A DNA stretch of 43,664 nt from a virus (IMGVR_UViG_3300033148_003439:1-43664), one strand, 5' to 3'; counted from the stretch's first letter, positions 8,454 to 28,166 are shown. Translations and numbers: made by a program. The notes: generated by a model not told the origin, from the sequence alone.

Positions 8454-8789
8454 TTAACTTGTAACCGTTAATCTACACACCAAACTCTTATACCCAATCC
8501 CAATTATCGAACTACGATACATCTCAGTATCGCCAACTTTTAAGTAAATGAAACCAGAGTATATACCTATCTGTCCTTTTTGTAAGTCGGTAATGGTTGG
8601 TTCGGATGTAAACACCTTGAAGGTAGAGGTACCTTGCGATATATCAAGATACGCTTTACGGAAGTATTCCTCCAACATCCGGACTAATTGCACCAACCAC
8701 CTTTCCAGTTCAGCATCTTGTACGTCACGTTGTTTACTGTACCTAAAGTCTTTTAAGAAAAGTACGTCCCGGGGTAAATTTACCTTCAT
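8454..8789 (-). CDS. Small tail-associated protein ending in an NLVCR-type motif
   Basis: A 111-residue protein with a helical, charged N-terminal half and a short beta-rich segment (GFIYLKVGDTEMYRSS) of a kind common at phage fibre attachment proteins. The last 11 residues (KSLVCRLTVTS) are one copy of the roughly 14-residue repeat shared with four other late proteins. ATG 8789 overlaps the stop of the preceding gene by 4 bases. Likely a virion component. The C-terminal motif looks appended. Confidence 0.55.
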   Translation of the reverse strand: MKVNLPRDVLFLKDFRYSKQRDVQDAELERWLVQLVRMLEEYFRKAYLDISQGTSTFKVFTSEPTITDLQKGQIGIYSGFIYLKVGDTEMYRSSIIGIGYKSLVCRLTVTS

Positions 8790-10048
8790 CTTAACCCCCT
8801 GTCACTTGCGGGTATATACGCTATCTGAATGTTGCGTAACTGAAATGATGAGTTTAGTTTATTGTTACGAAATCTATATCTAATCTTCTCATCATTCACG
8901 ACAAAATCCCACCTTTCCCAACTCCAGGTGTCGCTAAGTGTAAATACTTTAGAGTTCGGCCAAGATACTCCGGAGTCGGTACTTGCGTATACTGTGACTG
9001 CATTACCTCTGGCTTCAAACCCCAACCCCATCCAGTTTGTTAACCGCCGAAGGTAACCTTCAGTGGCGACAAAGTCTTTTGTCTCCCAATATGAGTCTAT
9101 TGTGTCACCTGCCAATGACCAAACATTCTCAACGTCTTTATATACCACTCCCGATGAGTTACCAAACATTGTTATAGGAGTTATGTTGTGTGTTACACGG
9201 TCATTGATGATACGTCCGACGTAGCTGTTGATGGTTCCCATCAAAGAGTTGATAACGGTTTCAGACTGCTCCTCAAACTCTCCCGTACTTGTGTAGGAAC
9301 GTGTACCTTTATACCACGCTTTCGAACGGGTGTTGAAGGTGAAGTACTTATTGGGTGTCGTACTGCCGGTTGTTGGTATGTAAATTCTAATTTCGTTAAG
9401 AGGTTTAATGTACTTCATAAACGAACGTCCGGCGTATTGAGGGTCTATGATGGAAAATAACTCGTCCTTTACGTTTGGACTTGCTATTCTATCCACCGTT
9501 CTTCCGCCGGCGTAGTAGTAAACATCATCACGTCCAAGTAAAACGTGCCCGTCTCCCAGATTAACGACTGCGTCCCGTGCCAATAGTCCAGTGTTGGGTA
9601 CACGGAGATAGAACTCAAACGGTTCGTCTACATCGGTCTTGTAGTCTTGCACAGCAATATTATGGTCTGAGTAGATTACGACGAAGTTTCCAAGAGGTAA
9701 TGCTCTTATAATGGTATCTTCTCCAAGCACGGTTAGTAAATCACTGGCTCCACTACCGGTAGCTGTCCAGTCGGTTGCCACAGGTGATGTACCCGGTTTA
9801 GTCGCAGCCGACCACCTGACACGTTGGGCGTAACGTACTGCGCTCTCCTTCGTGTTGTACAAACATAAACGGGAGCCAAACGGAAGTATGTCACGACAGG
9901 CGTAGTTTTCACATCCTGGTAGTTTGGATATGAAACTTGCACTCATATCCCAGTAGTAGATACCGTCTATGTCATTGGAGAAGATGTAATTATCGTTTAT
10001 CACTGCCGAGCACCATCTGTTATCTTCGTCTCCGCTAAAGTAAGCCAC
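8786..10048 (-). CDS. Tail tube/nozzle-like beta-propeller protein, C-terminal part
   Basis: A 420-residue, beta-rich protein resembling podoviral nozzle/tail-stabilisation proteins. Motifs such as DEDNRWCSAVINDNYIFSND and GIYYWD near the N-terminus, and repeated GRD/LGDGHVLLG-type turns, suggest propeller blades. It begins abruptly inside what looks like a blade, and the preceding 171-residue gene (10062-10577) carries the missing N-terminal part. The start is GTG 10048 with AGGAGG 8 bases upstream. Together the two would make a protein of the usual size, so this is probably a split gene whose halves may reassociate. Confidence 0.65.
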   Translation of the reverse strand: MAYFSGDEDNRWCSAVINDNYIFSNDIDGIYYWDMSASFISKLPGCENYACRDILPFGSRLCLYNTKESAVRYAQRVRWSAATKPGTSPVATDWTATGSGASDLLTVLGEDTIIRALPLGNFVVIYSDHNIAVQDYKTDVDEPFEFYLRVPNTGLLARDAVVNLGDGHVLLGRDDVYYYAGGRTVDRIASPNVKDELFSIIDPQYAGRSFMKYIKPLNEIRIYIPTTGSTTPNKYFTFNTRSKAWYKGTRSYTSTGEFEEQSETVINSLMGTINSYVGRIINDRVTHNITPITMFGNSSGVVYKDVENVWSLAGDTIDSYWETKDFVATEGYLRRLTNWMGLGFEARGNAVTVYASTDSGVSWPNSKVFTLSDTWSWERWDFVVNDEKIRYRFRNNKLNSSFQLRNIQIAYIPASDRGLR

Positions 10049-10061
10049 TTACGTTACCTCC

Positions 10062-10577
10062 TTAACTTGTTACCGTAATACCGCAGTGTAAGTTCCTAAC
10101 ATCGTATACTTTGACTGTGACTCTCGACACTAAGTTTTTGGTTGCTGGTGTATTAGGAACTCTGGTAATACGGCAAACCAAGTTCTTACTATCAAGAATA
10201 ATCACAGACACTCGACAAACTAAATTCTTAGGTGCCGCAACCAAACTAACAAAGGTGTTGGTTGTACTGTCATAATAATAAAGCTGGGTTGTAGTATGTA
10301 CCACCAACTTATCCGTCCCATCCGCCTTTTTGTAGTGGTAGATATTCATTATCGTTCCATCGAGAGGATATGTGGTAGTTTGACCATAGACGGCGGTACC
10401 GTGTGCTTTTTTCACGATGTTGTCTTGGAGTACTACTTCTTCACAGCGCGGAGTGTATTTCTCTTCCATAACGGTGGACGCTACGTCGTACCTCAGTCCC
10501 CCGTCGAGTTGATAGATTTCGTAGTACTTACGACGTTGTCTGGGTAACTTTAACCCTTTATCTCTTCTTGTAAGCAT
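10062..10577 (-). CDS. Tail nozzle-like protein N-terminal part plus NLVCR repeats
   Basis: A 171-residue protein. Residues about 20-115 (LDGGLRYDV, PLDGTIMNIYHYKKADGTDK, LVVHTTTQLYYYD) look like the first part of a podoviral nozzle/beta-propeller protein. Residues 117-171 are four copies of the NLVCR-type repeat ending in GITVTS and the stop. The next gene resumes the propeller sequence 13 bases later. The simplest reading is that a repeat cassette with its own stop and ribosome site interrupted an ancestral tail gene. A site AGAGGGGG precedes ATG 10577. Confidence 0.65.
   Translation of the reverse strand: MLTRRDKGLKLPRQRRKYYEIYQLDGGLRYDVASTVMEEKYTPRCEEVVLQDNIVKKAHGTAVYGQTTTYPLDGTIMNIYHYKKADGTDKLVVHTTTQLYYYDSTTNTFVSLVAAPKNLVCRVSVIILDSKNLVCRITRVPNTPATKNLVSRVTVKVYDVRNLHCGITVTS
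10065..10229 (-). repeat. NLVCR-type protein repeat array (4 units)
   Basis: Four units of 14-16 residues with the core K-N-L-V-C/S-R-V/I-T/S-V. The last unit is diverged (RNLHCGITVTS) and ends at the stop codon. The DNA after the array (GTAACAAGTTAAGGAGGT on the - strand) resembles the ends of the arrays at 8454 and 27780. Confidence 0.8.
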
Positions 10578-10594
10578 TTACATCCCCCTCTCCG

Positions 10595-11416
10595 TTATAT
10601 TCCCATCGGTAACCAGTAAATAGACACAGAGGTTAAATTGGATGCAGTAACTTTATAATAATCGCCTTTCTTAACTGGGCATGTTACAGATACTATTGAA
10701 TTACTTCCCAATGAGCCAACCGGAACGTATTGTTGTACTCTATCAGTTGTTGGAGGGTTATTTGAGTCTGTCTCAACCAAAAGGTTAACCTCCCCAGACC
10801 CATCCCATTTTCCTTTAGCTACAACAATCCCGTCGGTTGCTGCTTGATAAGATATATCTGCACTCTTAGCCGTCCAAGTTCCAAAGGGTTTTATTTCTGT
10901 TTCGTTATACGAGTAACCATCCAGCAAATCAGCGTTGAGGTTCGATACCTTCGTGGTGGATGTGATGGTCATAGGTGCGGTACCATCTGCTTTGTCTATG
11001 GTGACAGGTTCATTGAACGTGTTATCTCCAGTGTGGGTATTTGTGCCGGTAAAGGTCTTATCACCGGCAATAGTTTGAGTTTGACCGCCGGTGGTAACTA
11101 AACCAACCGCTGTCCAGGCACTCCCGTTCCAATAGTAGAGAGTGTTGTTTTCATCGGTTGCTATAGCTAAACACCCAACCGCCGTACTGGTAGGAGTTGG
11201 AAAGTCCGCTTTTGCACTTACTTTCAGGACGTTGGTTTCGCCCGATTTGTGCTCATACACTCCGCTTTGACCAGTCTCGTCAGCGTACGCATTGTGTTGT
11301 ACTGCCATTCTTTCCCGGATTGCGTATGCTAAACGGTTAACTTGGTCGTCTATCTCTGGAACGGTATCAACATCTCCGTCCAGAAGAGCTTCACTCCAAA
11401 CTTTGTCGAAACTCAT
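10595..11416 (-). CDS. Tail fibre / collar-like protein
   Basis: A 273-residue protein. A helical N-terminus (about 1-45, DQVNRLAYAIRERM) would attach to the tail. A small domain NNTLYYWNGSAWTAVG (about 89-104) resembles short phage fibre motifs. A Thr-rich beta segment follows (GDKTFTGTNTHTGDNTFNEP, about 118-137), then the LNADLLDGYSYNE motif (about 159-171) common in fibres. The role would be host recognition or decoration. It overlaps the upstream small membrane-protein gene by 4 bases, and a GGGGGTG site precedes ATG 11416. Confidence 0.7.
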   Translation of the reverse strand: MSFDKVWSEALLDGDVDTVPEIDDQVNRLAYAIRERMAVQHNAYADETGQSGVYEHKSGETNVLKVSAKADFPTPTSTAVGCLAIATDENNTLYYWNGSAWTAVGLVTTGGQTQTIAGDKTFTGTNTHTGDNTFNEPVTIDKADGTAPMTITSTTKVSNLNADLLDGYSYNETEIKPFGTWTAKSADISYQAATDGIVVAKGKWDGSGEVNLLVETDSNNPPTTDRVQQYVPVGSLGSNSIVSVTCPVKKGDYYKVTASNLTSVSIYWLPMGI

Positions 11417-11658
11417 GGTGTCACCCCCTTCATTTTACTTAGCAGTGTCAGAAAAGCTACCAATAGACCGACTGTTGACGCTGAAAAGAAAGATAGAGCT
11501 AATGTTACCCATATAGGTGGTCTATCTAACTTCCTCTCAACATTCGCTTGAAAATGATGAAAATCGTTTGTACGCCAACTGTCGAAGTCTCTAAAGTACT
11601 TTTCCAGAAGTGTACGATTGGCTTTACCATAATCACATCCATTATTTCTTTTCACCAC
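11413..11658 (-). CDS. Small single-pass membrane protein, holin/spanin candidate
   Basis: An 81-residue protein with a polar N-terminus (about 1-47) and one C-terminal membrane segment (WVTLALSFFSASTVGLLVAF, about 50-69). The start is GTG 11658 with AGGAGGACATAA upstream. Size and topology suit a holin or membrane lysis accessory, and three other very small genes lie just upstream. Function is inferred only from these features. Confidence 0.5.
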   Translation of the reverse strand: MVKRNNGCDYGKANRTLLEKYFRDFDSWRTNDFHHFQANVERKLDRPPIWVTLALSFFSASTVGLLVAFLTLLSKMKGVTP

Positions 11659-11887
11659 TTATGTCCTCCTTTACTTCTTTGTCCAGTGTAGTGTACTCAG
11701 TAATATCATCGTTTAACCCATCCAAGGTAGAGACCAGTAAGTCTTTTAGTTTCGCCAAATCTTTTAGACGATGAAGAATTCTCTCTCTGGTTTCACGTTT
11801 GGAGCGGTTTACACTACCCCTGGTTATATCTCCAAAATTCCCGCTCGTATTTGTCCCTGATTTTGTGTTCCCGTGTTTGTTCCTCAT
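11642..11887 (-). CDS. Small charged protein, coiled-coil C-terminus
   Basis: An 81-residue protein with a Gly/Asn/Thr-rich start and a heptad-like C-terminal half (RLKDLAKLKDLLVSTLDGL). It overlaps the upstream 85-residue gene by 74 bases and the downstream gene by 17. The ribosome site for ATG 11887 is weak, so the true start may be further in. Not recognised. It sits in the small-gene cluster that may be the lysis cassette. Confidence 0.45.
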   Translation of the reverse strand: MRNKHGNTKSGTNTSGNFGDITRGSVNRSKRETRERILHRLKDLAKLKDLLVSTLDGLNDDITEYTTLDKEVKEDISGEKK

Positions 11888-12071
11888 CTTTTGACTCTAT
11901 TTTATGTGTCAAGTGAATAAAATGTTCACCAGCATCAACCGCCTTTTTGAAACGGATAATAGAGTTTGTGTGTAACTTCTTGGCTTGATTATCGGCGTTT
12001 GAGTTCTCTCTAATCCAACCCATTACTTGTTCAGCAAACCGGATAATCGGACCTAAAACCAGCACACCCAT
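11814..12071 (-). CDS. Small hypothetical protein, amphipathic N-terminus
   Basis: An 85-residue protein from ATG 12071, chosen over ATG 12086 because TGGGAGGAAATA lies just upstream. A short hydrophobic start (MGVLVLGPIIRFAEQVMGWI) is followed by a highly charged helical region. It begins directly after the stop of the 77-residue gene. It could be a membrane-associated partner in the putative lysis cluster. Confidence 0.5.
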   Translation of the reverse strand: MGVLVLGPIIRFAEQVMGWIRENSNADNQAKKLHTNSIIRFKKAVDAGEHFIHLTHKIESKDEEQTREHKIRDKYEREFWRYNQG

Positions 12072-12072
12072 A

Positions 12073-12306
12073 TTATTTCCTCCCAATCATTAACCAAAAA
12101 TTCTTGAACTTTTCGAAGTACTCTACCACGGTGTTATAGATTTGGTTTGTTTTCTCGATTATTTTTTCATCCTCGTTCGTCCAAACGAAGATTAAACCAA
12201 CTATACGTTCTACGGTTACCAGTGCTTCTTTAATAATAGGCAGCGCCAACTCGATTATTCCTATTGCTGCACCGACAAGGTTGAAAATTTTGTTTACCAG
12301 TGTCAT
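12073..12306 (-). CDS. Small hydrophobic protein, holin-like
   Basis: A 77-residue protein whose first about 45 residues are hydrophobic (LVGAAIGIIELALPIIKEAL and ERIVGLIFVW), compatible with one or two membrane segments, followed by a charged helical tail. AAGGAGGG precedes ATG 12306. Its size and adjacency to other tiny membrane genes suggest a holin or similar, but there is no family-specific motif. Confidence 0.5.
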   Translation of the reverse strand: MTLVNKIFNLVGAAIGIIELALPIIKEALVTVERIVGLIFVWTNEDEKIIEKTNQIYNTVVEYFEKFKNFWLMIGRK

Positions 12307-12320
12307 ATTACCCTCCTTCT

Positions 12321-13286
12321 TTATCTGGTCTCAATTTTATCTGGAACCAATGTCCAGCTCGTTGATTTATCGCAACATCTCCACCAATCCGCGTATACTG
12401 TTACTTGGCAGAGAAGAGATGTGTTAGCTTGACTAAGTACTGACAGTCTGCATACTATTGATTTTGAAGATATATGTAAAACAGTAGTTTGTGATACTAA
12501 ATTGGTTGAGCTAGTTTTATACACCAATATACGACAAATTAAGTCAATTGTATTCATAATGTCAACATCTATTTGACAAACCAGATTTTTAAAGTCCGCT
12601 TGTAAGACTGTAACACGAGATTTCAAGTTTTTAGAATCCATTTGTAAAACCGTAACCTGAGAAACCAAATTTTTCTCATTCTCAGACCTAAAAACAGTAA
12701 GTTGACAGAGCAAGTTAGTAGAACTAAATGCTGGATTTACAGTAATACGAGAAATGAGGTTCTTGCTTACGTAACCATAAATGTAAAAACAACTGTCAGA
12801 TAATGCACTAGCAGTCCACGTTTCAGATGACCCACCGTAGAATACACTATTTCCAGGATGTGTAGGAGAAGATGAATCTAAAGCAAACTCAATCCAGTCA
12901 TTAATACCAAAGCCATCTGTAGCTTCTACTACTATACAGTAGTCAGTGTTATCAGACATTATATAAGGTGTTGGAAACGTAAAATCAAATAATACCCAAG
13001 AATAAGGTTCCGAACTTAAGTCTACCTCATTAGAAGACACTAACGCATTACCAGTTGGTATAGCAGTACTCCCAACTGTTCCAGTTGCTGCATACAATCT
13101 CGCTGTCAATGAACCTGAATTGTTAGCTGGTTTAAGGTAAAACTTGCATGATGCTAGAACATAATTACCAGAAAGCGTGAAAGATTGACCACACGCAGAC
13201 ACCTTATAGTCTGTAGTAGCTGGGTGAAGCTCATCTATATTAGTTTTTGAACTATAGTTACTTTCACTATATGAATCTATTAACAC
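12321..13286 (-). CDS. Adhesin-like protein with nine NLVCR-type repeats
   Basis: A 321-residue protein. Residues 20-172 form a beta-rich domain like bacterial surface jelly-roll modules (LASCKFYLKP, LTARLYAATG, WVLFDFTFPTP, NTDYCIVVEATDG). Residues 174-299 are nine units of the 14-residue repeat, followed by a Trp-rich end (DKSTSWTLVPDK) resembling the end of the neighbouring 222-residue protein. The start is GTG 13286 with AAGGAGATGG upstream. Probably a tail or head fibre. The regular repeats suggest a beta-solenoid shaft; Cys in about half of the units is unusual. Confidence 0.55.
   Translation of the reverse strand: MLIDSYSESNYSSKTNIDELHPATTDYKVSACGQSFTLSGNYVLASCKFYLKPANNSGSLTARLYAATGTVGSTAIPTGNALVSSNEVDLSSEPYSWVLFDFTFPTPYIMSDNTDYCIVVEATDGFGINDWIEFALDSSSPTHPGNSVFYGGSSETWTASALSDSCFYIYGYVSKNLISRITVNPAFSSTNLLCQLTVFRSENEKNLVSQVTVLQMDSKNLKSRVTVLQADFKNLVCQIDVDIMNTIDLICRILVYKTSSTNLVSQTTVLHISSKSIVCRLSVLSQANTSLLCQVTVYADWWRCCDKSTSWTLVPDKIETR
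12390..12767 (-). repeat. NLVCR-type protein repeat array (9 units)
   Basis: Nine tandem 14-16 residue units, with the Cys position alternating between Cys and Ser (for example KNLVSQVTV, KNLVCQIDV, IDLICRILV). The sequence varies more than in the adjacent 222-residue protein, suggesting an older array. Confidence 0.8.
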
Positions 13287-13301
13287 CGTTATACCATCTC
13301 C

Positions 13302-13970
13302 TTATAAGCTCTTACACACTTGCCCAACAACTGGAACGTCATCCGTAATCTGAGTCCAAATTGTTGATTGTTTGCTGACCAAATCCCACTTCCAAATGTT
13401 TAGTCTGCATATTAGGTTACGTTCCAACGAACGGCGAACGGTTATAGTACACACTAAAGGAGTAGTATTGGTAACTATCGCCGATACACGACAAACTAAA
13501 TTTTTGGTGCCTGCAGCAATTATCGTTGTCCGGCAAGTTAAGCTCTTTGTACCGGTAACAACCGTTGATATACGACAAACCAGGTTTTTACTATCTACAG
13601 CAATCGCTGATATTCGACAGACTAAACTTTTAGTACCTGCCACAGACGATGTTACCCGGCAAACCAGGTTCTTCGTGTCAACGCACATATAAGAAAGAAC
13701 GCCGTCACTTACGTATAACTTCCAATCAACACCAAGAGTAGAATCCGACAGCTCGACAACATCATCTTGAACTGTTGCGGTGTTTTCCACAGCCAGGACT
13801 GCGTTGTCTATGTAAAGTTTCCAGTATGTACCTGGATTAGCGTCATCTTCAAAGATAGGTTCGGACTGAGGAGTGTTTGCAGTGGTGTCGTATTGCAATA
13901 CTCCATCATCAATTGTCACCGCATAATCGGTTGCGCTGGTTCTATCTGTTAATACATACTCACTGGCCAT
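13302..13970 (-). CDS. Repeat protein with seven NLVCR-type units
   Basis: A 222-residue protein. The N-terminus contains two copies of a WKLYIDNAVLAVE / WKLYVSDGVLSYM module (about 50-62 and 84-95). Residues 99-196 are seven units of near-perfect 14-residue period (KNLVCRV, KSLVCRI, KNLVCRI, KSLTCRT and so on). The C-terminal SKQSTIWTQITDD resembles the end of the 321-residue neighbour, so the two genes are paralogous in their second halves. Likely a virion fibre. The ribosome site before ATG 13970 is weak (GTAAAGA). Confidence 0.55.
   Translation of the reverse strand: MASEYVLTDRTSATDYAVTIDDGVLQYDTTANTPQSEPIFEDDANPGTYWKLYIDNAVLAVENTATVQDDVVELSDSTLGVDWKLYVSDGVLSYMCVDTKNLVCRVTSSVAGTKSLVCRISAIAVDSKNLVCRISTVVTGTKSLTCRTTIIAAGTKNLVCRVSAIVTNTTPLVCTITVRRSLERNLICRLNIWKWDLVSKQSTIWTQITDDVPVVGQVCKSL
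13383..13676 (-). repeat. NLVCR-type protein repeat array (7 units)
   Basis: Seven units with a strict 14-residue period for the first five. The DNA is also visibly repetitive: AAATTTTTGGT/AAGTTCTTCG-type blocks recur about every 42 bases. This is the most homogeneous of the five arrays. Confidence 0.85.
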
Positions 13971-14022
13971 TCTTTACATAATTGTTACGTTTAGTTAATA
14001 TTTTTCCGGAACTTATTATACA

Positions 14023-16752
14023 TCATAGACCCAAACCCGTTATAATCGTTCCAATTACTTGCGGAGCTCCTTCCTCCGGCGCTGTAAACTCCCACCCGCT
14101 ATTATTTCCACTATCCGTATTGCCGTCACTCGTATAAGCTAACCAGTCAGCACCACCTTCGGCTGTAGAGTAGGATATGTCGCAGTAGTAGACTCTGTTT
14201 TCTCCTGATGAGTCGGATATAGTCCACCCGCCTGTGCTTGTGCCGGTCAAGGTAATTCCGTCATCTGCGTCACCATTTGCTACGAAGGATGATACTGTTG
14301 TGGTTGTGCCGTCGGTGAATTTGACAATCTTAGGATTACTGATAGTAAAAGTATTCCAAGTAGGTGAGCCTGTAAAAATTACTGCCCCCGTCCCTCCACC
14401 TGTTATGCTGATATTGTTATAGGTTGAGTTTCCTTCACGCATAGTCTTGGTGCTTCCAGATGTATCGCTTATAACGATAGTAGAGGTTTCAGGTTCAAAA
14501 GTTAAATTGGTAGTAGTCCTCATATCCCATTTATCACCCGTTCCCGTAAGAGTCCACGTTCCACTTCCCATTGTGATAGTTCTGGTATTGGAAGTGTTTG
14601 ACCACATTAAATAATTGGACACATTAAAATTATTGGCGTCAAAAGTGCCGTTATAAATATACAGGCTATTGGCATTACTAAAAGCGTCTTGTAAAGTAAT
14701 ACTCCCCCCTACTATTTGAATATAAACTTTTGAATTAAAGCTTTTTCCAGCACTTGTTAAAGTATATGCCCCTCTGCCTTGGAAATACGAATATTTTGTG
14801 TGCGTAAAGGTCATTCCATTTACCAATGTAAGAGAACCGTAAATTATATTGGGAGTTGAGTTCATAGCAAACGTCGGCGTATTCGTTGCTCCTGTCCAAT
14901 CAATACTACCCATTCTCGGCATATCAGCAGTTACAGTCTGACTTCCATTATCAAAACTATTAGCGTCGAACCTTGCTGTATCCTGAGGTAAAGGCGGATG
15001 AGTAGCCTGTGAGCCACCGCCATTTGTGGCTGTATACCATTTGGTATAGTCCGACCAATTCCCGCCGTCAACGTGCCAATACCAGGTGGTAGGTGTGGTG
15101 AAGGTGATATTAGAGTTGCCTCCGCAGTCACCGGAGCCGCCACTTATTGCGGACAAATCCCAAGAAGCTGAACCTGCTCCGGTAATGTCTTGAAAATCTA
15201 CGTTTGAGGCTGATACTGTGCCGTTGCAAGTGATAGTTCGGGTTGTGCCGAGGACATTGGATTTAACGAGAAGACGATTGCTTGCAGAGTTGCCATTTAA
15301 GGTGAGCGTGCCTGTGATTGTTTGACTGGCATAAAGAATAAAATTATCCGTTTTCGCTGCCGTGCCTGTAAATGACAAATTTGTAAAAGTATTAGCCTGA
15401 AAAAGACGAGCATTATTTGTCCCTCCCGTGTATTGAACATCATAATAAGTTTTTCCTCCCCCTCTGACATAAGGATTCCTTCCAGAAAATATGAGGGTAG
15501 ATGTTTCACAATTTAATGTAAAATTAGACACGTTTTCCGTATCCCAAGCATTTGCCCCACTTCCATCTATAGTGCAAGTAATCGTTCCTGACCCCATATT
15601 AAGAGTTCGAGTATTAGTATTATCAGAATTAAAAGCTTGTATAGTAACATCTTGGTCATTAAAATCCAGCGTTCCTTCTGTAAGCACTATGTCTCCGTCT
15701 GAACGCGCGGTATAAGTGTCTTGTAGCGTAACAGTGATACCTGAGCCATTTACAGTGAAATCGCCAAGATTTTTTCCTGCTGTGGTGATACTGGCAGTTG
15801 CATCTACCGTTATGGAAGAATTATCATCTTCGGCAATATAAGTCATTCCAATCACGAAAGTCAAATTGCCGGAAATAGTCCAAGAAATTCCATCATTATG
15901 AGTAAGCGTCCCCGTATAATTGGTAAAATCAGCAGATTTACAATCAGCGTCAACATTTATCGTTAAATTCCCACTACTTCCATCTCCTTGCGCTACCACA
16001 TCATCAGAGGAAGTGGGAACAATTCCTTCTTCCCAAGTAGCTGTATCGTTCCAATTACCGCCGGCGTCGGAGATAGTTCGGGTAGAAGTTGAATAAAGTC
16101 CAGTCATTATCTTTACATAGTCAACATGAGTAACCATATCGTTCGTAGCATAACCATTTTGACGAACCATCGTTGTCCCATCAGTCCCTGCTATTTCAAA
16201 GCTGCAAGGAATTGCAGTTCCTACTTTTTCCCAACTGTGAGTAGAGTCAGTTAAATAAACATCACAAGTCCCTTCTCCGGTAGTGCCTGTAAAGGTTACC
16301 AAAAATCTCCAGATTTGCCATTCAGCACTTCCACCGTGTTTTACCAAATCAGTCCCAACCTCGGTATCTCCTGAGTCGGTATCTTTTATAAATAAGCCAT
16401 CCGAGGAAAACTTTGCAGTCAAGCGTTCATCAGTTTGCATCGCATTCAAAACAAAGTAGTCTATATCCGCATTAAGACCAATTGAATCGTGGTATAGTTT
16501 TATTTCAACAGTAAAAGTATTTGGAAAACTTCCTACATCTATAGTTCTACTAGCCCAATCATTTCCAGCTGCACCAGCATTTGTGTCTAGTCTTAACTGT
16601 CCAGTTGGGTCAACTTCACTTACTCCATTACCATCATCATCATCTATCCAATCTGAAATGTCCGAACAGTCTTCCTCTAATAAGTCCCAACCAGCAAATG
16701 CAGTGCTTATCAGACAGAATAGAGATAATATGGTAATTACAAACTTCTTCAT
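14023..16752 (-). CDS. Large secreted beta-helix/adhesin-like protein with signal peptide
   Basis: A 909-residue protein with a classical signal peptide (MKKFVITILSLFCLISTAFA, cleavage after AFA), odd for a virion protein. The mature part is Gly/Thr/Asn-rich and beta-rich. A domain WNDTATWEEGIVPTSSDD (about 230-250) is typical of G8-like bacterial surface modules, and a second such unit, GGNWSDYTKWYTATNGGG, lies near 570. Repeats of the type FTNLSFTGTA/TITGTLTLNG suggest parallel beta-helix. Its start overlaps the preceding stop (ATGA). It is most likely exported to the host envelope or medium, or else a spike kept with a host-type leader. Confidence 0.6.
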   Translation of the reverse strand: MKKFVITILSLFCLISTAFAGWDLLEEDCSDISDWIDDDDGNGVSEVDPTGQLRLDTNAGAAGNDWASRTIDVGSFPNTFTVEIKLYHDSIGLNADIDYFVLNAMQTDERLTAKFSSDGLFIKDTDSGDTEVGTDLVKHGGSAEWQIWRFLVTFTGTTGEGTCDVYLTDSTHSWEKVGTAIPCSFEIAGTDGTTMVRQNGYATNDMVTHVDYVKIMTGLYSTSTRTISDAGGNWNDTATWEEGIVPTSSDDVVAQGDGSSGNLTINVDADCKSADFTNYTGTLTHNDGISWTISGNLTFVIGMTYIAEDDNSSITVDATASITTAGKNLGDFTVNGSGITVTLQDTYTARSDGDIVLTEGTLDFNDQDVTIQAFNSDNTNTRTLNMGSGTITCTIDGSGANAWDTENVSNFTLNCETSTLIFSGRNPYVRGGGKTYYDVQYTGGTNNARLFQANTFTNLSFTGTAAKTDNFILYASQTITGTLTLNGNSASNRLLVKSNVLGTTRTITCNGTVSASNVDFQDITGAGSASWDLSAISGGSGDCGGNSNITFTTPTTWYWHVDGGNWSDYTKWYTATNGGGSQATHPPLPQDTARFDANSFDNGSQTVTADMPRMGSIDWTGATNTPTFAMNSTPNIIYGSLTLVNGMTFTHTKYSYFQGRGAYTLTSAGKSFNSKVYIQIVGGSITLQDAFSNANSLYIYNGTFDANNFNVSNYLMWSNTSNTRTITMGSGTWTLTGTGDKWDMRTTTNLTFEPETSTIVISDTSGSTKTMREGNSTYNNISITGGGTGAVIFTGSPTWNTFTISNPKIVKFTDGTTTTVSSFVANGDADDGITLTGTSTGGWTISDSSGENRVYYCDISYSTAEGGADWLAYTSDGNTDSGNNSGWEFTAPEEGAPQVIGTIITGLGL

Positions 16753-17177
16753 TCGATAACCTTTGTATCTATTTTCTTTGCGTTTATCTCCACTATTTTA
16801 AAATCTATCTCATCAATCTGTGTCTGCAATTCGGTCTTCATCTTTTCCAGTTCTTCTTTTGTAGGCTCTATATAGGGTGCCGGGTGTTCAAGGTGATATT
16901 TCCAATTATTAATCCTCTGCTGCTTCTGAACATTAATGGGCACAATATTAGCCTTTTTCTTAAGCTCTTCCTTAGTTAACTCTATATCTGGTGTAGTCAA
17001 GAGCCTGTATTCCTCTAAGGTGAAATATAAAGCGTCATTGTATTCTAATTTTCTAATATTGCCATTAAAGTTGATGTCGACGATTTCTTTGATTTTTACC
17101 CGAATGTCAACGGTATCTTCGGCAAAGCAAACCGAACTAAACAATAACGACAAAACAAGTAAACTAACCATTCTCAT
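16749..17177 (-). CDS. Small secreted coiled-coil protein with signal peptide
   Basis: A 142-residue protein with signal peptide MRMVSLLVLSLLFSSVCFA, cleaved before EDTVD. The C-terminus (about 105-140, ELEKMKTELQTQIDEIDFKI) is a strong coiled coil. It lies between two other signal-peptide proteins, with AAGGAGGTCTCT before ATG 17177. Function unknown. It could be a chaperone or trimerisation partner for the large secreted neighbour. Confidence 0.55.
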   Translation of the reverse strand: MRMVSLLVLSLLFSSVCFAEDTVDIRVKIKEIVDINFNGNIRKLEYNDALYFTLEEYRLLTTPDIELTKEELKKKANIVPINVQKQQRINNWKYHLEHPAPYIEPTKEELEKMKTELQTQIDEIDFKIVEINAKKIDTKVIE

Positions 17178-18721: not shown

Positions 18722-19048
18722 TTAAAGACGTCGCCACCGTTTACCCTCACGTTTCTCGATAGTAACTTTAACATTACCGTTTCCTTCATCTACCTCTATT
18801 TTGAATGCGTAGGTACCGTCCAATATAAACCCAATAACTCTCTCGGTTATACCTTTCAGCGGGCCGGTACCGACTACAGCCCTCTTTAACTGTATAAACT
18901 CAACATTCTTACCATCCGCACTAATCGTGTATGTTTTACCGCTCCGGTAAAGTTGGAGCGACGTAATGTCCTGATGTGGAACCTGCCTCCAATCAGTCCC
19001 CTCACTTTCTTTGAGAGTTCTGCCATCTCGTAAGTGTGCTACGAACAT
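18722..19048 (-). CDS. Small hypothetical virion-region protein
   Basis: A 108-residue protein. Start ATG 19048 is preferred over 19132 because GGAAGGAG lies upstream and the longer frame would run through the palindromic element and into the preceding gene. Beta-rich with a basic C-terminus (KREGKRWRRL). Not recognised. It lies between the 153-residue beta protein and the secreted block. Confidence 0.5.
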   Translation of the reverse strand: MFVAHLRDGRTLKESEGTDWRQVPHQDITSLQLYRSGKTYTISADGKNVEFIQLKRAVVGTGPLKGITERVIGFILDGTYAFKIEVDEGNGNVKVTIEKREGKRWRRL

Positions 19049-19070
19049 CAGTTCATCCACTCCTTCCCTT

Positions 19071-19093
19071 GTAAATTCAAAAATTGAACTTAC
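19071..19093. repeat. 23-bp palindromic element, copy 2
   Basis: Arms GTAAATTCAA and TTGAACTTAC around AAA. It sits in the short gap between the 153-residue gene and the preferred start at 19048; on the - strand it ends a few bases before the GGAAGGAG site. Confidence 0.85.
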
Positions 19094-19098
19094 GGCCT

Positions 19099-19560
19099 TT
19101 AGGTATAACTGTACTTCAGTTGATACCCCCACGCAGTATGAGCTCCATCACCAGCCGCTGACGGAACTTTAATTGCGAGGTACACAAAATCGCCATACGC
19201 TCCAGCACTAACGGCGCTGTACGCATAACCAGAACCAGTACTCTCCGGCATCTCAGTCCCCCACGAACTTGAAGGGGTAATACCAGATGGTTTGACGTAC
19301 GTACCGGTTGCAGTTATATGGTGTAGCCATCCGCCTGCCGTACCCATACCTGTTGAGGCCGCTGACCTGGTGCCAGCAATGTCGTAGAACCACCACTTAG
19401 CACTCTGGATAGAGTTCGTTGCAACCTTGGGACGAACACACTGAACAACGCTCCAGGCGCCGGCAGTAACCGTTCCAAAGTTCAACGATGCGATGCTCGA
19501 ATACGTTGCACTGTTCGTGGTACCGGTAACCTCGTACCACGTAATTGATGGTGCTGCCAT
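19099..19560 (-). CDS. Beta-rich virion protein (tail or decoration)
   Basis: A 153-residue protein, Ser/Thr/Ala/Gly-rich with Trp-Tyr ends (ITWYEVTG, WGYQLKYSYT), lacking charged helices. Composition and position suggest a small structural jelly-roll-like protein. No family recognised. AGGAGGTGAGAAG precedes ATG 19560. Confidence 0.55.
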   Translation of the reverse strand: MAAPSITWYEVTGTTNSATYSSIASLNFGTVTAGAWSVVQCVRPKVATNSIQSAKWWFYDIAGTRSAASTGMGTAGGWLHHITATGTYVKPSGITPSSSWGTEMPESTGSGYAYSAVSAGAYGDFVYLAIKVPSAAGDGAHTAWGYQLKYSYT

Positions 19561-19575
19561 CTTCTCACCTCCTTT

Positions 19576-20631
19576 CTATTTCTTTGGACTTCCCACCAGT
19601 CTGTGACGAAGTCCTAAATATTCCTTTTTGAAGGGCGGTAGAAGTAACTCTTCCACTAACCCGTCCGCGTACTCGTAATTGTACGCTCTCTCTATCTTTT
19701 CATCAACGCCGACTAACTTCTTGTTGGCGTACTTATCAATACTCTTCTGAAACGGTATCACCTTCATTCCCTTGAAGTGAAGTATCCCAGCTTCACTGCA
19801 GTTAATGAGAGTATGTGCACAGAATTTACTATTCTCTCTCAACCACGCCCAAAACATCAGTAACGTTTGGTGAGTAAGTACAAGTTTACCGTTGATGTCC
19901 GGGAACAACATACAGTGAGCTTTGAACTTCGCCCCCTTTTGATAGTTTACCTTCCAATCAACAATCCCGTCTGCGTATACCTTATCGGTTGAAGGCCAAC
20001 TCAAGTCCATCCCCACAAACATTATAGGATTACATCCCATCGCAGCCGCAAAACAATAACAATCACCCGTCGTGAGAATAGCTGCTGGTAGCGCTCCCTT
20101 ACGTCCGATGTGGTAAGGTATTTGTTCAAAGAGCGTATTCTTCGTATCTTTTATGTTGAATACCGCTAAATGTTTAGGGTCAACACTTCGAAAGATGGAT
20201 GGGTCTACGACAGGAGGTACTATGGTGTAAAATTTAGTCGTATCAATATCTTTGAAGTTGTGTTTCTGCTTCGGTGTTGGGTCAACCATTACTACGAAAT
20301 GCGGATACACGTCATATTTGTTTACCAGTATCGGTAGTGCCGCATCACAACTGACTATGATGAAGTTATCTTTATACTTATTAAGTAAGTGTCCATTCTT
20401 GTCCAGTGACGGCCCAGCTCCGACAACAACTGCAGGTACCCTCTTAAAGATTTCTTTGAAACCAAGTATCCCGGGAGGACGTGTAGCCTGAATAATGACC
20501 ATATTCCAAAGAAAGTTTTTTAACTGAAGGTCATAAAGTCCTCCTTTACACATTTCCTGATAGAGCTTACGCTGCTCATCAAGATTTTTTTGGTCGTAGT
20601 ACTCGTCTGATTTAATCTTTGCGGTAGACAT
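19576..20631 (-). CDS. DUF115 / Maf-like (MptE-like) putative glycosyltransferase
   Basis: A 351-residue protein with the DUF115 signature: PAVVVGAGPSLDKNG (about 66-80) followed by IIVSCDAALPIL and PHFVVMVDPT (about 110-119). In bacteria this Rossmann fold is found in the motility accessory factors (Maf) that attach nonulosonic acids to flagellin; in archaea, MptE has the same fold and acts on a pterin. A phage copy inside the virion operon, directly after a SAM methyltransferase, suggests sugar modification of a virion or host surface protein. The genes overlap by 20 bases. Family confident, substrate unknown. Confidence 0.75.
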   Translation of the reverse strand: MSTAKIKSDEYYDQKNLDEQRKLYQEMCKGGLYDLQLKNFLWNMVIIQATRPPGILGFKEIFKRVPAVVVGAGPSLDKNGHLLNKYKDNFIIVSCDAALPILVNKYDVYPHFVVMVDPTPKQKHNFKDIDTTKFYTIVPPVVDPSIFRSVDPKHLAVFNIKDTKNTLFEQIPYHIGRKGALPAAILTTGDCYCFAAAMGCNPIMFVGMDLSWPSTDKVYADGIVDWKVNYQKGAKFKAHCMLFPDINGKLVLTHQTLLMFWAWLRENSKFCAHTLINCSEAGILHFKGMKVIPFQKSIDKYANKKLVGVDEKIERAYNYEYADGLVEELLLPPFKKEYLGLRHRLVGSPKK

Positions 20632-21175
20632 ACATTCCGCTCCCTCTTTGTTGACCGGTCAAACGGTGAGGTTTAAGTTTGAATTGCTCAAACTTCTCCT
20701 TCCACCAGTTGAACGGTCTCACAGTGAGATGAATTCCCTTACCGTAGACGCTATCGGTTAACCCAACCGTAGCGAATATCCATCTCTTACTAACTCTAAC
20801 CAACTCGGATAATGCTCTATCTACATCCTTCTCGTCAAGATGCTCAAGAACTTCGCAGCAGAACACTAAATCAAATTCTTCCACTCCGTATGGGATATGT
20901 GTAATACTACCATACTTTACTATACCGGTAGCGACCAGACTCCGAAGTGGATTTGCTAACAACCACGAGCAGGTTTCTATACCTCTGGCCTGTTTACCGT
21001 TCTTAAAGAACTCAAGTATTGCATAACCGGCTCCACACCCAACATCAACGACATTCCGGAAGTTAAGTATCTCTGTTGCTGTCGTTACCATACCCAGCCC
21101 GATACTCGCTTCCGGCATCCCGTAGTTGGTGTTTGCGTACAGGTGGTCGTACACCGATTTCTGTCCAGTGTGCAT
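20612..21175 (-). CDS. Class I SAM-dependent methyltransferase
   Basis: A 187-residue protein with motif I VVDVGCGAGYAI (about 42-53), an acidic residue in the second strand (GIETCSW) and the motif IV/post-motif block FDLVFCCEVLEHL (about 101-113), as in UbiE/Methyltransf_11-type enzymes. No target-recognition domain is seen, so a small-molecule or glycan substrate is more likely than DNA. It overlaps the DUF115 gene. AAGGAGAAAGTAACGG precedes ATG 21175. Confidence 0.8.
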   Translation of the reverse strand: MHTGQKSVYDHLYANTNYGMPEASIGLGMVTTATEILNFRNVVDVGCGAGYAILEFFKNGKQARGIETCSWLLANPLRSLVATGIVKYGSITHIPYGVEEFDLVFCCEVLEHLDEKDVDRALSELVRVSKRWIFATVGLTDSVYGKGIHLTVRPFNWWKEKFEQFKLKPHRLTGQQRGSGMYVYRKD

Positions 21176-22489: not shown

Positions 22490-22519
22490 CTCGCTACTCC
22501 TCCATAATTAAGTGTAAGA

Positions 22520-22544: not shown

Positions 22545-22583
22545 CCCTACGTTAGACTGTAGCTTGGGGCTAAAAGTCAAATT

Positions 22584-23387: not shown

Positions 23388-23450
23388 TGTTTCACTCCTG
23401 TTTAGGTTTGAGGGGAGGCCGCCTAACAACCATCCTCATCCAGCTTTTAG

Positions 23451-23467
23451 ACTCAGTTAGGCTGAGT
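23451..23467 (-). terminator. Small hairpin after the major capsid gene
   Basis: Stem ACTCAG/CTGAGT with a 5-base loop, just after the major capsid stop. There is no T-run, so it is probably an attenuator or mRNA-stabilising hairpin that would let capsid message exceed downstream message. Confidence 0.35.
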
Positions 23468-23479
23468 TAGTACGTATCC

Positions 23480-24475: not shown

Positions 24476-24481
24476 AATTTA

Positions 24482-25177
24482 TTATTCCTTGTTACCAAAT
24501 GCCTGCCGGTACGCTATCTCAGCAGCTTCCTCTTTAGTTAACTGTTTGTCTTTAACCGCACCGGGAGGCAATCCATCGCCTTTCTCAGACCAAACTTTTC
24601 GCTCCTTCTCTTCTTTCTCCCTCTCTAATTTAGCTTTTTCTTCCGCTTCAGCTTTAGCCTCCAATTTAGCTTGTTTGTAAAGTTTCTCCGCACCCCAAGT
24701 CGGGTTCTCTTTACCAAGCTCCTTGATACGGTCTTTGTATTCGTAGAAGTCGGGGTGTTTAATAGCAGTCATTTCAATATCGATTTGAGCCATAGCCATA
24801 CCGATACGTTCTTCCTGCTGACTAAATTTCTCTACTATACCGTTAATAGCCTTATCAAGGTCGCCTTTGTACTTCTCGGAGAAGTACTGAGCAATTTCTT
24901 TGGAAGTTGCTGTGTCAAGGTCAATCTCTTTGTCAACGCTATGAGAAAGTTTACCTTTGCTCTCCTTGAACTTCAAGTAATCATCGCTGAGAAGTTCTTT
25001 ATCAGCCTGGTCGAGTTTGCGTTCAAGGTCGCTCTTCGCCTCCTTTAGTGTTTCATGTTCTTTCTGAAGACCTTCAAATTGGGATTTGAGTTCAGAAAGT
25101 TGAGCTTGGACATCGCCCGCACCCGTTTCATTCCCTTTGCCTTCGCCATTGCCGTTTCCGTTAGCTTCAGGTGGCAT
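24482..25177 (-). CDS. Capsid scaffolding protein
   Basis: A 231-residue, very charged protein. Gly/Asn-rich at residues 5-22, then a long coiled coil (about 25-70), a central helical part and a second Lys/Glu-rich coiled coil (about 165-195). Composition, length and position immediately before the major capsid gene are characteristic of scaffolding proteins that template procapsid assembly. It overlaps the preceding gene by 11 bases, with AAGGAGGTAAAAG upstream. Confidence 0.8.
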   Translation of the reverse strand: MPPEANGNGNGEGKGNETGAGDVQAQLSELKSQFEGLQKEHETLKEAKSDLERKLDQADKELLSDDYLKFKESKGKLSHSVDKEIDLDTATSKEIAQYFSEKYKGDLDKAINGIVEKFSQQEERIGMAMAQIDIEMTAIKHPDFYEYKDRIKELGKENPTWGAEKLYKQAKLEAKAEAEEKAKLEREKEEKERKVWSEKGDGLPPGAVKDKQLTKEEAAEIAYRQAFGNKE

Positions 25178-25535
25178 CTTTTACCTCCTTCTTTTCTTTA
25201 CCCGTTACTTTTCTAAGTTTGGGTAATTTAGAACTACATTTGGGACAATACCATACGTCTTCTACCTCCACAGCCGTTTTCCGGTTGAGAGATTGACGAC
25301 AGGTACCGCAATCAACCATCATAATACCGCTCTGAAGAAGCTTAGCTTTCCATTGGCGGTACGCTTTCATCATACGTCTCCACGCGATAGTTACGTCCCT
25401 ACCGGTTAGGTGCCCGTCAAACTTAATCTCTGGAACTTGTCCCAAGTAAACCTTAATGGTAATAGTACCTCTAAGTTGCGACTTCGGTTCTGGTTTCTTC
25501 TTAGTCGCTTGTTCAGAGCCAATCGCCTCTGCCAT
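25167..25535 (-). CDS. Zinc-ribbon protein
   Basis: A 122-residue protein from ATG 25535 (AAGGAGG upstream; a GTG six bases earlier is less likely). The C-terminal half carries CGTC and CPKC pairs (about 76-79 and 96-99), a zinc ribbon. The N-terminal half is Lys/Pro-rich then beta-rich. It sits between portal and scaffold genes. Function unknown. Confidence 0.6.
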   Translation of the reverse strand: MAEAIGSEQATKKKPEPKSQLRGTITIKVYLGQVPEIKFDGHLTGRDVTIAWRRMMKAYRQWKAKLLQSGIMMVDCGTCRQSLNRKTAVEVEDVWYCPKCSSKLPKLRKVTGKEKKEVKDAT

Positions 25536-25545
25536 ATACACCTCC

Positions 25546-25800
25546 TTACATTAATCTGGCCGCTTTTACGTTATGTTTCTTACACTCTTCTTTAAGTTGC
25601 CTTTTACTTGTAATGTACATGGACTCCTCACATATGTCGTGAAACCACGCGGGAGTAAAAATAGAAACTTGGTTAGTCCCTGTAAAGACCATTCTGGCCT
25701 TTTTACCACAGGAAGGACACTTAGCAAAGTGTCTCTCATCTATACGTTTAAACTCATCAAACTTCCTCCCGCACTCACATTCATAATCGTAGTACGGCAT
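25546..25800 (-). CDS. FmdB-like zinc-ribbon protein
   Basis: An 84-residue protein with the FmdB regulatory-protein pattern: MPYYDYECECGRKFDEFKR followed by CPSCGK (about 28-33). FmdB-type ribbons are small and of uncertain role, and are common in phages near terminase or portal genes. The start overlaps the portal stop by one base, so it is translated from the same mRNA. Confidence 0.7.
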   Translation of the reverse strand: MPYYDYECECGRKFDEFKRIDERHFAKCPSCGKKARMVFTGTNQVSIFTPAWFHDICEESMYITSKRQLKEECKKHNVKAARLM

Positions 25801-27539
25801 TATATCATACTCCTAATCATGTTGGCGTTCTGCCTCGTACGCGCTTCACGTTGCGCTGGGTTTTGCATTAACTGCCTCTGATTTGCAACAAACTGATTAA
25901 GCGCCATTGGATGCCCCAATGACGTCTCCGGTGCTTGAGGTAATATAGTCATAGCGTCCGCCCACTCGTATTCTCTCAAGAGCAACCTTAACAGATGGTC
26001 GATGTTTGCCGAAGGATGTTTGGCAAGTGCTTGTATAACCTGAAAAATTTCCCTTTTCTTAAACTCTTTGGTTTTAGGACTCAAACTTTCAACATCGACT
26101 TTTATGTTGTATTCTCCCGCTATTGCGTTAGGTCTGTAACGAACCCAGTAACGGGCTGCGTCAAAACCAACAACCTCAATAACCTTCTCCGTATCCCACC
26201 GGCTAAATATGATTTGGTTCAACTTCCGGATAGTTCGTTGAAGTGCTTCAGCCACAATGTCACGTCTCTCGTCAATTCTAATCTCATGGGCTTGCTGTAC
26301 AATTCCGGCTTCGGTTGCAGTTCTCCGGGAGGAACGCGCTTCCTCTCCAAGCTGATTACGTCCAAATCCCATCATTTCTCTTGCATCCGCTCTAATCTCC
26401 TGAACCCACCCTAAAAGTTCGGGAGGGATGTGTGGTTGGATAATAGCTGCAACTTGTTTGGGGTCTCCCGTAACTTTTACGACAGGCCCTACATTCTCAC
26501 TCATCATTTTGTCAATTTCATCAATATCAATGAGGTTGGCGTTAACTAAGAACTTAACCAACGCAATCCGGCGATGGTACATTGCCTGGGTACGCGCCTC
26601 ATTGATTTCGAGTTGCTGAGGCTCCATTATAGCCACGTCAGAAGGGCCCCAGTAGAATTCAGTATCCTCATTGAATGTAAAGTCCACGAATGGTAACCCT
26701 TCGATTTGGAGTAAATCCTCCTCCGGAGGACGTATCCATTTATCGTGACCGGGTACATACGCCATAATCTCTTGTGTGCGTCTGTTCCTAATTTCGTGAA
26801 TTTCAACGAGGTCGTGGTATTTACTCAACTCCCGGTAAAAATCTGCATAGTACGGGTCTTTGTAGAGTAACTCCACATGTGTACCTTCTAAATCACTCAC
26901 ATTCTTATACTTCTTGTCCGCTTTAACATCTTCCAACCTTCTAATAGAAACATGGTCAATCCACGGACAATCATCCAGTGTACGCACCCCAAAAGGTAAA
27001 ATGATATAGTCCGGCATAGTACGTAACGCCCAAGGCATTCCTGGTTTAACGTTTATGTTGTACTCAGTCAAATCCCCTTTCTTGTCGAACTGTCCTGACA
27101 TATCACGTCCGATACCGAATAACCTTCTGGTATTTCTAAAGTATCCATACTGACTATCATAACCCAACTTAATAATACCCCTGTTGGTGTAGTACGCATC
27201 CAACACCGCTGTTTTAAACTGTCGCTTAAGGTTTAACTCTTGTATCAACCAATTATCCGTAGCTTCCAGGATTTTACTGTAGATAGGGTCTATTGGCTGT
27301 ACAGCTCTTGAAATGTTTACGTATGGATTACGGAAATAGACATTCGGAACCAAAGCCCGGGACATTGCGTACGTCAGATTATATGGAAGAACGCCTGAAA
27401 CAGTACCCGTATACCCAGGAAACTTACCTCTACCATAGTTGCGGTAGACACTCCAACGCTGGCTATCACCGTACTTTTCCTTGTATATACGTCCCTGTTC
27501 GACCAGTTCCTGCCATTTCTCTATATCGCTTTTAGCCAT
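25800..27539 (-). CDS. Portal protein
   Basis: A 579-residue protein in the portal position, four genes after the large terminase. Features include the N-terminal YNLTYAMSRALVPNVYFRNP (about 53-72), a central wing/stem with EPQQLEINEARTQAMYHRR (about 305-325), the crown-proximal ARSSRRTATEAGIVQQAHE (about 400-420) and helical barrel segments near the end. The pattern Q-x-x-x-N-x-x-R-T in the stem helix is typical of podo-type portals. The dodecamer would form the DNA channel at the capsid vertex. Confidence 0.85.
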   Translation of the reverse strand: MAKSDIEKWQELVEQGRIYKEKYGDSQRWSVYRNYGRGKFPGYTGTVSGVLPYNLTYAMSRALVPNVYFRNPYVNISRAVQPIDPIYSKILEATDNWLIQELNLKRQFKTAVLDAYYTNRGIIKLGYDSQYGYFRNTRRLFGIGRDMSGQFDKKGDLTEYNINVKPGMPWALRTMPDYIILPFGVRTLDDCPWIDHVSIRRLEDVKADKKYKNVSDLEGTHVELLYKDPYYADFYRELSKYHDLVEIHEIRNRRTQEIMAYVPGHDKWIRPPEEDLLQIEGLPFVDFTFNEDTEFYWGPSDVAIMEPQQLEINEARTQAMYHRRIALVKFLVNANLIDIDEIDKMMSENVGPVVKVTGDPKQVAAIIQPHIPPELLGWVQEIRADAREMMGFGRNQLGEEARSSRRTATEAGIVQQAHEIRIDERRDIVAEALQRTIRKLNQIIFSRWDTEKVIEVVGFDAARYWVRYRPNAIAGEYNIKVDVESLSPKTKEFKKREIFQVIQALAKHPSANIDHLLRLLLREYEWADAMTILPQAPETSLGHPMALNQFVANQRQLMQNPAQREARTRQNANMIRSMI

Positions 27540-27661
27540 TTCTTACGACTCCTTAACTTCTTAGTTAGAAACCGTTTCTTAAGATACTGAACGTGAAGTT
27601 CCTCAAGAGAGCGCTTTTGCAATGTAACTCGTTTTCTTTTTGGTGTGGACTTCTCCGGCAT
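27521..27661 (-). CDS. Tiny basic protein
   Basis: A 46-residue, very Lys/Arg-rich protein (MPEKSTPKRKRVTLQKRSLE at the start). It has its own site (TAGGAGGAAAGTCCT) before ATG 27661. It overlaps the 54-residue gene by 59 bases and the portal start by 19. Likely nucleic-acid-binding. Not recognised. Confidence 0.5.
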   Translation of the reverse strand: MPEKSTPKRKRVTLQKRSLEELHVQYLKKRFLTKKLRSRKKWLKAI

Positions 27662-27767
27662 AGGACTTTCCTCCTATGAAGCAAATTTTTATGTACTTCC
27701 CGTCTTTAAGTGTTTTGGTTCTAACACGTCCTCCCTTACGGACACATGCCTCGAAACTCTTTGGCAT
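27603..27767 (-). CDS. Small hypothetical protein
   Basis: A 54-residue basic protein (MPKSFEACVRKGGRVRTK at the start) with TTAGGAGGTATAG before ATG 27767. Beta-rich with GKYIKICF and KSYAGEVHTKKK. Small proteins of this pattern occur in phages between terminase and portal. Function unknown. Confidence 0.6.
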   Translation of the reverse strand: MPKSFEACVRKGGRVRTKTLKDGKYIKICFIGGKSYAGEVHTKKKTSYIAKALS

Positions 27768-27776
27768 CTATACCTC

Positions 27777-28166
27777 CTAACTGGTTACAGTGATACGGCA
27801 AACTAAATTGTCGGTAACACCTCTAACCATCGGGTTGATACGACAGACCAAATTCTTGCTGGGCGGTGTTACTGAGTCGTACTTATCAATGTAAAGTCTA
27901 CACCTTGCACCATTTGCAGATACGCTTATAAACAAGTTTCTGACATGTACCGCAAGACCAATACCGTTAGTATACACCTTCGGCTTATTAGCTGTAGCTT
28001 CCTCCAAAGCGTACACAATCTTACCACTGGCATCATTTTCTCTCACATCCACGAACGCAGCCGACGCACCACAGTCAATAATTCCGCCGTAGATTTTACC
28101 AACTCCCGTGATAACTTCTCCTCCACCAAACGTTGGAGATGCTGTGTAAGCAGTATTCAAACTCAT
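27777..28166 (-). CDS. Small virion-like protein with two NLVCR-type repeats
   Basis: A 129-residue protein from ATG 28166, chosen because ACAGGAGGT lies upstream (an ATG at 28184 would put that site inside the gene). Residues 1-98 form a beta-rich domain (GGIIDCGASAAFVDVREND, LAVHVRNLFISVSANG). Residues 104-129 are two units of the roughly 14-residue repeat ending in ITVTS. The palindrome at 28183 lies just upstream. It is located between terminase and portal, far from the other repeat proteins. Confidence 0.55.
   Translation of the reverse strand: MSLNTAYTASPTFGGGEVITGVGKIYGGIIDCGASAAFVDVRENDASGKIVYALEEATANKPKVYTNGIGLAVHVRNLFISVSANGARCRLYIDKYDSVTPPSKNLVCRINPMVRGVTDNLVCRITVTS
27780..27857 (-). 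repeat. NLVCR-type protein repeat array (2 units)
   Basis: Two units (SKNLVCRINPMVRGV and TDNLVCRITVTS) followed directly by the stop and a ribosome site. It resembles the array end at 10065 although it lies 17 kb away. Confidence 0.75.

Follow-up and report, generated by a model that had tools for sequence, protein, structure and literature searches.

A conserved 14-residue repeat on several late proteins of an uncultured podovirus, a candidate interchangeable module of the virion surface

Why would one phage carry the same short repeat on five late proteins that are otherwise unrelated? This question is raised by the window, by which we mean the whole 43,664-base IMG/VR contig IMGVR_UViG_3300033148_003439, on which all coordinates are given. 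Its late region is of the LUZ24/P22-like podovirus type, with a P22-type portal at 25800 and a terminase at 28205, and it contains a repeat, here called NLVCR, with the core K/T-N-L-V-C/S-R/Q-V/I-T-V, a period of 14 amino acids (aa) and a unit spacing of 14-16. A first-pass annotation had counted 23 units in five genes, in arrays of 1, 4, 9, 7 and 2, and this count was confirmed by a check of the open reading frames (ORFs) and with a position-specific scoring matrix (PSSM). All units are in frame and on the minus strand, in the genes listed here with the ORF that continues the propeller protein.

8454..8789, minus strand: 111-aa protein adjoining the propeller, with a single terminal unit, KSLVCRLTVTS-stop, at 8454-8489
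8786..10048, minus strand: propeller protein, C-terminal half, with its own GTG start directly after the array
10062..10577, minus strand: propeller-type virion protein, N-terminal half; aa 1-116, then 4 units (10062-10229), then a stop
12321..13286, minus strand: fibre-type protein with an N-terminal beta domain, 9 units (about 12380-12766) and a W-rich C-tail
13302..13970, minus strand: fibre-type protein with short beta repeats, 7 units (about 13380-13675) and the C-tail IWKWDLV..STIWTQ
27777..28184, minus strand: 135-aa protein between terminase and portal, with a beta domain and 2 terminal units (27777-27857) ending in TVTS-stop

The 23 units score 17.4-28.3 in the PSSM, the next best six-frame place, just behind stop codons and outside the five genes, scores 15.5, and shuffled six-frame proteins give about 14 matches with a score above 6, so that the units stand far above chance. 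Since the matrix was built from the same units that it scores, these values are descriptive only, and independent support for the repeat comes from its recurrence in other phages, where a hidden Markov model (HMM) of the arrays finds it. Three arrays (8454, 10062 and 27777) end in TVTS-stop, as had been reported, but the nearly fixed distance from stop to ribosome site claimed with it holds only in part: at 27777 and 10062 GGAGG overlaps the stop or comes straight after it, and at 8454 it lies about 7 nucleotides further on. A special meaning of this spacing was rejected in favour of ordinary operon packing, as plain operon neighbours have equally close sites. Outside the arrays the proteins are unrelated in their N-terminal parts, while the 12321 and 13302 proteins have in common a short W-rich tail at the C-terminus. 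The tail of the 13302 protein resembles the fibre tails of two related phages, G007 (IWKW..W) and G013, and the N-terminal beta domain of the 12321 protein gives a sub-threshold match to DUF4082.

A terminase search of IMG/VR gave 18 contigs, 61-72% identical to the window's terminase except for one 99% sister. The array HMM matched the window, G001, G003, G007 and G013, with E-values as low as 7e-35. It had no match in 15 further records, which included array-free genomes of 30-45 kb; many relatives are fragments, for which the absence of an array mostly covers only the slot after the terminase. In that slot most relatives have a protein of about 100 aa with no array, and the contig L017 has one with 7 units. 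In G013, whose terminase is 58-59% identical to the window's, the orthologues of the three short-tag genes carry 2, 2 and 1 units and two of them end in TVTS-stop: the orthologue of 8454 (44% identical) has 1 unit and ends NLICRVTVTS, and that of 27777 has 2 units and the TVTS end, as in the window. The N-terminal part of the 8454 protein is conserved among relatives and its C-terminal part varies, with other C-termini on the orthologues in G004, G006 and G012. Long arrays recur as well, as about 48 units in a 1385-aa fibre of G013 and about 25 units in a nearly pure array protein of G007. In G007 an array is also cut within a unit by a stop, ribosome site and start. On the terminase tree the array phages did not come out as a single clade, and at least 3 changes are needed. 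With arrays present in G001, G003, G007 and G013, the proposal of a modular, mostly C-terminal element kept in related phages stood up well.

No named family was found to contain the repeat. A Pfam search gave no match of the arrays above cut-off, PHROG matches were weak and of unknown function, and there was no Ig-like (immunoglobulin-like) or carbohydrate-binding module (CBM) sequence match within the arrays. The grass antifreeze beta roll PF21300 matched the G007 array only (22.2 bits, under the gathering cut-off of 30). An exact KNLVCR[VIM]TV pattern found nothing useful in viral and genome contigs beyond two isolated genome matches, a pattern of three LVxR units picked up G013 and otherwise simple repeats only, and tblastn of the arrays against 50,697 phage records gave nothing significant, with no isolated phage matched. 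A DLxAxFxVR-type repeat, considered as possible kin, was dropped for want of a phage match. On its sequence and distribution, the repeat is a real, previously undescribed and conserved module of virion proteins in a group of uncultured podoviruses.

Residue statistics were taken over 98 units from the window and its relatives, chosen by similarity to the consensus. Position 5 is always small (C 51, S 35, A 8, N 3, G 1), position 3 is hydrophobic in all units and position 4 in 92%, position 6 is R/K in 79%, position 8 T/S in 82% and position 14 Ser/Thr in 60%, a pattern that suggests strands buried on both faces. The claim that most units hold a cysteine is true of the window (18/23) but not of its relatives, as only 13/45 units of the G013 fibre have one and most L017 units also have none. 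Between units of the window pS (synonymous) is 0.86 and pN (nonsynonymous) 0.31 over the 7-codon core, with similar values in G007 and G013, although pN is biased downward because units were picked by protein similarity. The units thus keep a conserved protein core while differing freely at synonymous sites, and since these sites are near saturation, a recent DNA-level duplication of units was rejected: the array is a protein repeat and not a recent DNA duplication. For the same reason the proposed spreading is not supported as a recent DNA event, and two of the short tags also speak against it, as they sit on orthologues at 58-59% terminase identity with the same unit number and TVTS end.

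The first-pass annotation had overlooked that the array of 10062 lies at the break of a gene that is continuous elsewhere. By hmmscan, aa 31-114 of the 10062-10577 product match phrog_3287 positions 17-97 (E 4e-5) and the 8786-10048 product matches positions 104-523 (E 2e-39), so that two ORFs jointly match one family and the array sits exactly between its halves. The propeller is one ORF in LUZ24 (gp56), Mel-JY34, G004, G006, G012, G014 and G015, whereas the window and G013 have it split at the array; in G013, with a 2-unit array, a stop, ribosome site and new start lie between the halves as in the window. This order of array, stop, ribosome site and start recurs at one position in two distinct genomes, so that a sequencing error is unlikely. 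The five array-free relatives G004, G006, G012, G014 and G015, about 41-45% identical over the C-terminal half, all have an insert of beta type precisely at the position of the array; these inserts are labelled CBM/LamG-like by eye from the sequence, Pfam giving no match above cut-off there. A Ser/Pro-rich octad repeat of SPSAS type occurs in G015 (L107:521-2869, 5211-6740) on a LamG fibre as well as in the propeller insert, where it parallels the NLVCR array.

To model the fold, AlphaFold2 was run on the 13302 array with 28 aligned array slices (26-46% identical to the query), and it gave seven strands of 10-11 residues, one per unit, at a predicted local distance difference test (pLDDT) score of 87.4 and a predicted template modelling (pTM) score of 0.79. 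Foldseek neighbours were beta-solenoid and cross-beta proteins (FapC, CsgA, bactofilin and ice-binding proteins; SufB at a template modelling (TM) score of 0.67), and viral matches included a Klebsiella phage virion structural protein (TM 0.50). A beta-solenoid-like fold, as guessed from the sequence at the outset, is the best model available, and we treat it as a lead and not as proof.

The explanation that we favour, tentatively, is that the NLVCR array serves the virion surface as an exchangeable accessory module, a rod displayed outside the particle for contact with a host or surface, or for shielding, like the CBM and Ig-like modules of other phages. Each 14-residue unit would form one beta strand and a tight turn, and a pile of such units would make an elongated rod, for which a flat beta-solenoid is the best model. 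Much of the fibre-type proteins would then consist of long arrays (7-9 units per gene in the window, about 25 in G007 and about 48 in G013), and short tags of 1-4 units would cap the C-termini of the nozzle/propeller N-terminal half, its 111-aa neighbour and the small protein between terminase and portal, at places where relatives have other modules, such as the CBM/LamG-like ones of the propeller, or nothing. A globular insert has its ends close together, whereas the ends of a rod would be far apart, so that a chain could not thread into a propeller loop and back; this may be why the propeller is divided into two chains right after the array. The repeat with its positions and conservation, the split, the exchange of modules and the constraint on the protein are direct observations, and the fold, the exposure on the surface, the cause of the split and the function are inferred from them.

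Several points weigh against this explanation. TM-scores are low for most Foldseek matches, AlphaFold2 has a known tendency to predict beta-solenoids too often when repeats are perfect (PMC11795689), although the units here have diverged, and a run on the whole 12321 protein without an alignment was uninformative (pLDDT 40). The surface exposure of the propeller insert site is judged from the size of the inserts, and the single-unit tag of 8454 cannot make a rod alone and therefore suits a docking tag better.

A rather unlikely alternative, though one compatible with a surface module, is that the array is a scaffold for glycans, accepting sugars from a phage-encoded MAF-like transferase and a neighbouring methyltransferase so that nozzle, fibre and head-slot proteins become sugar-coated. 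The candidate enzymes lie near the fibre genes, in four adjoining genes (18722-21175) that, by tblastn of the window's late proteins, are common to the window, G007 and G013 and have no match in G004, G006 and G012.

18722..19132, minus strand: 136-aa protein of unknown function, 56-60% identical in G013 and G007
19099..19560, minus strand: 153-aa protein of unknown function, 69-72% identical in G007 and G013, with no match in G004/G006/G012
19576..20631, minus strand: PF01973 protein (MptE-like; FlagModPseD/MAF-related), Pfam 105 bits against a cut-off of 34.6
20612..21175, minus strand: S-adenosylmethionine (SAM) methyltransferase, PF08241 52 bits against a cut-off of 21.2

Besides the window, 19 records were searched for PF01973, and G001, G007 and G013, all of them array phages, were the only ones to contain it (none in the other 16); among close kin the methyltransferase is divided in the same way. 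The PF01973 protein has neither a PHROG nor a match in the phage collection. G013 additionally encodes a polysaccharide pyruvyl transferase. The array-free G015 pairs its SPSAS repeat with a GT2/rhamnosyl-O-methyltransferase protein in the same locus, and the repeat-free G004, G006 and G012 have no match to the three enzyme families searched. This pairing of repeats with sugar enzymes suggests glycosylated repeats, and potential Ser/Thr acceptors are frequent at positions 8 and 14. MAFs transfer nonulosonic acids to flagellin (PMC13317340), and some mycobacteriophages carry glycans on capsid and tail-tube C-termini (Freeman 2023, as cited in PMC12619734). On the other hand, the sample is small (four independent repeat phages against three without), and the genes may merely travel together as a cassette. 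The PF01973 family includes pterin diphosphokinases, and the match of the window's member to NCBIfam FlagModPseD (E 7e-17) reaches only 61 bits against a cut-off of 670, with 351 aa against a 640-position model. The distant G016 and G017 have glycosyltransferase-like genes and no such repeat in the parts scanned, and an acceptor needs no conserved L-V-C/S-R core. The stronger proposal is correspondingly doubtful: a self-contained virion glycosylation system, in which nozzle, fibre and head-slot proteins would all have received the repeat as a shared acceptor tag, to be decorated by the co-inherited transferase and methyltransferase, with a related phage using the same scheme through SPSAS and another enzyme pair. 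Within the same cassette, the 153-aa protein exceeds the terminase in conservation (58-66% for the terminase in these pairs) and has no Pfam or PHROG match.

About equally doubtful is a homotypic docking tag, by which the short tags on the nozzle and minor proteins would stack their strands on the ends of long arrays and so attach the fibre and further components to the particle. The two genomes whose whole late region is visible, the window and G013, have tags as well as long arrays, and the long array-free genomes have neither. Two of the tags keep their length (1 and 1, 2 and 2) and their TVTS end, hydrophobic residues are conserved on both strand faces (L3/V7 and V4/L10), and the fibre proteins of G013 and G007 start almost directly with the array. 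However, G007 has long arrays yet an untagged protein after the terminase, the protein in that position in L017 has as many as 7 units, and within G013 tags and long arrays differ in detail. Docking and glycan carriage both remain testable alternatives to the surface module.

The remaining explanations fare much worse. A trimeric alpha-helical coiled coil, with 14 as a 2 x 7 register as in reovirus sigma-1, is very improbable. It was raised by a search of the repeat profile against the PDB, whose best sequence match is the sigma-1 heptad stretch (whole-chain E 3e-5, domain i-E 0.03-0.4), and L3, V7 and L10 are spaced like heptad positions. This match and another to 8qox were rejected as heptad-period stretches: the would-be f position (position 5) is small and never charged in the 98 units, the e position (position 4) is mostly hydrophobic, many G007 units contain Pro, and beta propensity exceeds alpha in every array, in line with the strands predicted by AlphaFold2. 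There is similarly little to recommend a tolerated expansion with no function of its own: copy number does vary widely and most relatives have no array, but the protein core is kept over saturated synonymous sites (a comparison biased by choosing units on protein similarity) and the same tags sit on the same orthologues. Crosslinking through cysteine, one of the functions first proposed and suggested by the window's own units, is already largely refuted, as position 5 is freely Cys, Ser, Ala, Asn or Gly, the last four in about half of all units and in most of those of the G013 fibre and L017, a pattern that appears to exclude any cysteine-specific role.

Some further features of the window were noted. 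Comparison with the sister contig L001 (98% identical) points to a recent module swap adjoining the array genes: about 1.1 kb of L001 (6804-7905) is unmatched, against 3.0 kb in the window (14070-17125) that hold the 14023 gene. This gene (14023-16752) encodes a 909-aa late protein that opens with a signal-peptide-like stretch, MKKFVITILSLFCLISTAFAG, which is odd for virion proteins; similar starts are found on fibre-region proteins of G006 and G012 (L038 reverse strand 2254-5007; L039 2059-3789, 4127-5383) but not on the G004 relative. Outside the late region, a 298-aa protein (39085-39981) has a hexapeptide repeat, xVFDNA, and resembles a left-handed beta-helix. Two ORFs (32887-33219 and 33362-33670) carry 7/14-residue Trp/Gln/Lys-rich repeats, with a similar ORF in G015 (L108:7037-7408).

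How, then, does an NLVCR surface module compare with known systems? Known accessory modules on phage particles are globular domains, and here a minimal one, a single strand-turn unit, would occur in numbers from 1 to about 48 on several virion proteins of a single phage, with its place kept across distant relatives. It lies outside named families, and the gene split linked to it has a plausible explanation in geometry. It offers a way to test how phages swap surface parts, and the linked cassette makes virion glycosylation testable. Ig-like accessory domains of tailed phages are likewise promiscuous and are attached to head, tail and fibre proteins, often at the C-terminus and sometimes by frameshift, but at about 80-100 aa they are far larger than an NLVCR unit, and they are not matched by the arrays. 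Beta-solenoid repeats (curli CsgA, FapC, bactofilin and the PF21300 beta roll) resemble the modelled arrays in their short tandem strand-turn units and are Foldseek neighbours, and differ in that the arrays belong to none of their sequence families, reach low TM-scores except with SufB and have a distinct L-V-(C/S)-R core. As in the mycobacteriophages (Freeman 2023, cited in PMC12619734), C-terminal parts of several virion proteins might serve as glycan carriers, although the link here is a co-occurrence with a MAF-like gene. The lactococcal 936 phages, with CBMs on several virion proteins, are a precedent for one kind of binding module on several proteins (PMC6669499). There too one type of accessory beta module is interchangeable between phages, and CBM/LamG-like inserts occupy the array site in relatives of the window; but the 936 modules are globular, two of them with shown host binding, whereas the module described here is a 14-residue strand repeat with a putative binding role, linked to a gene split. 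By analogy, the NLVCR repeat may work like the Ig-like and CBM accessory domains despite sharing no sequence with them.

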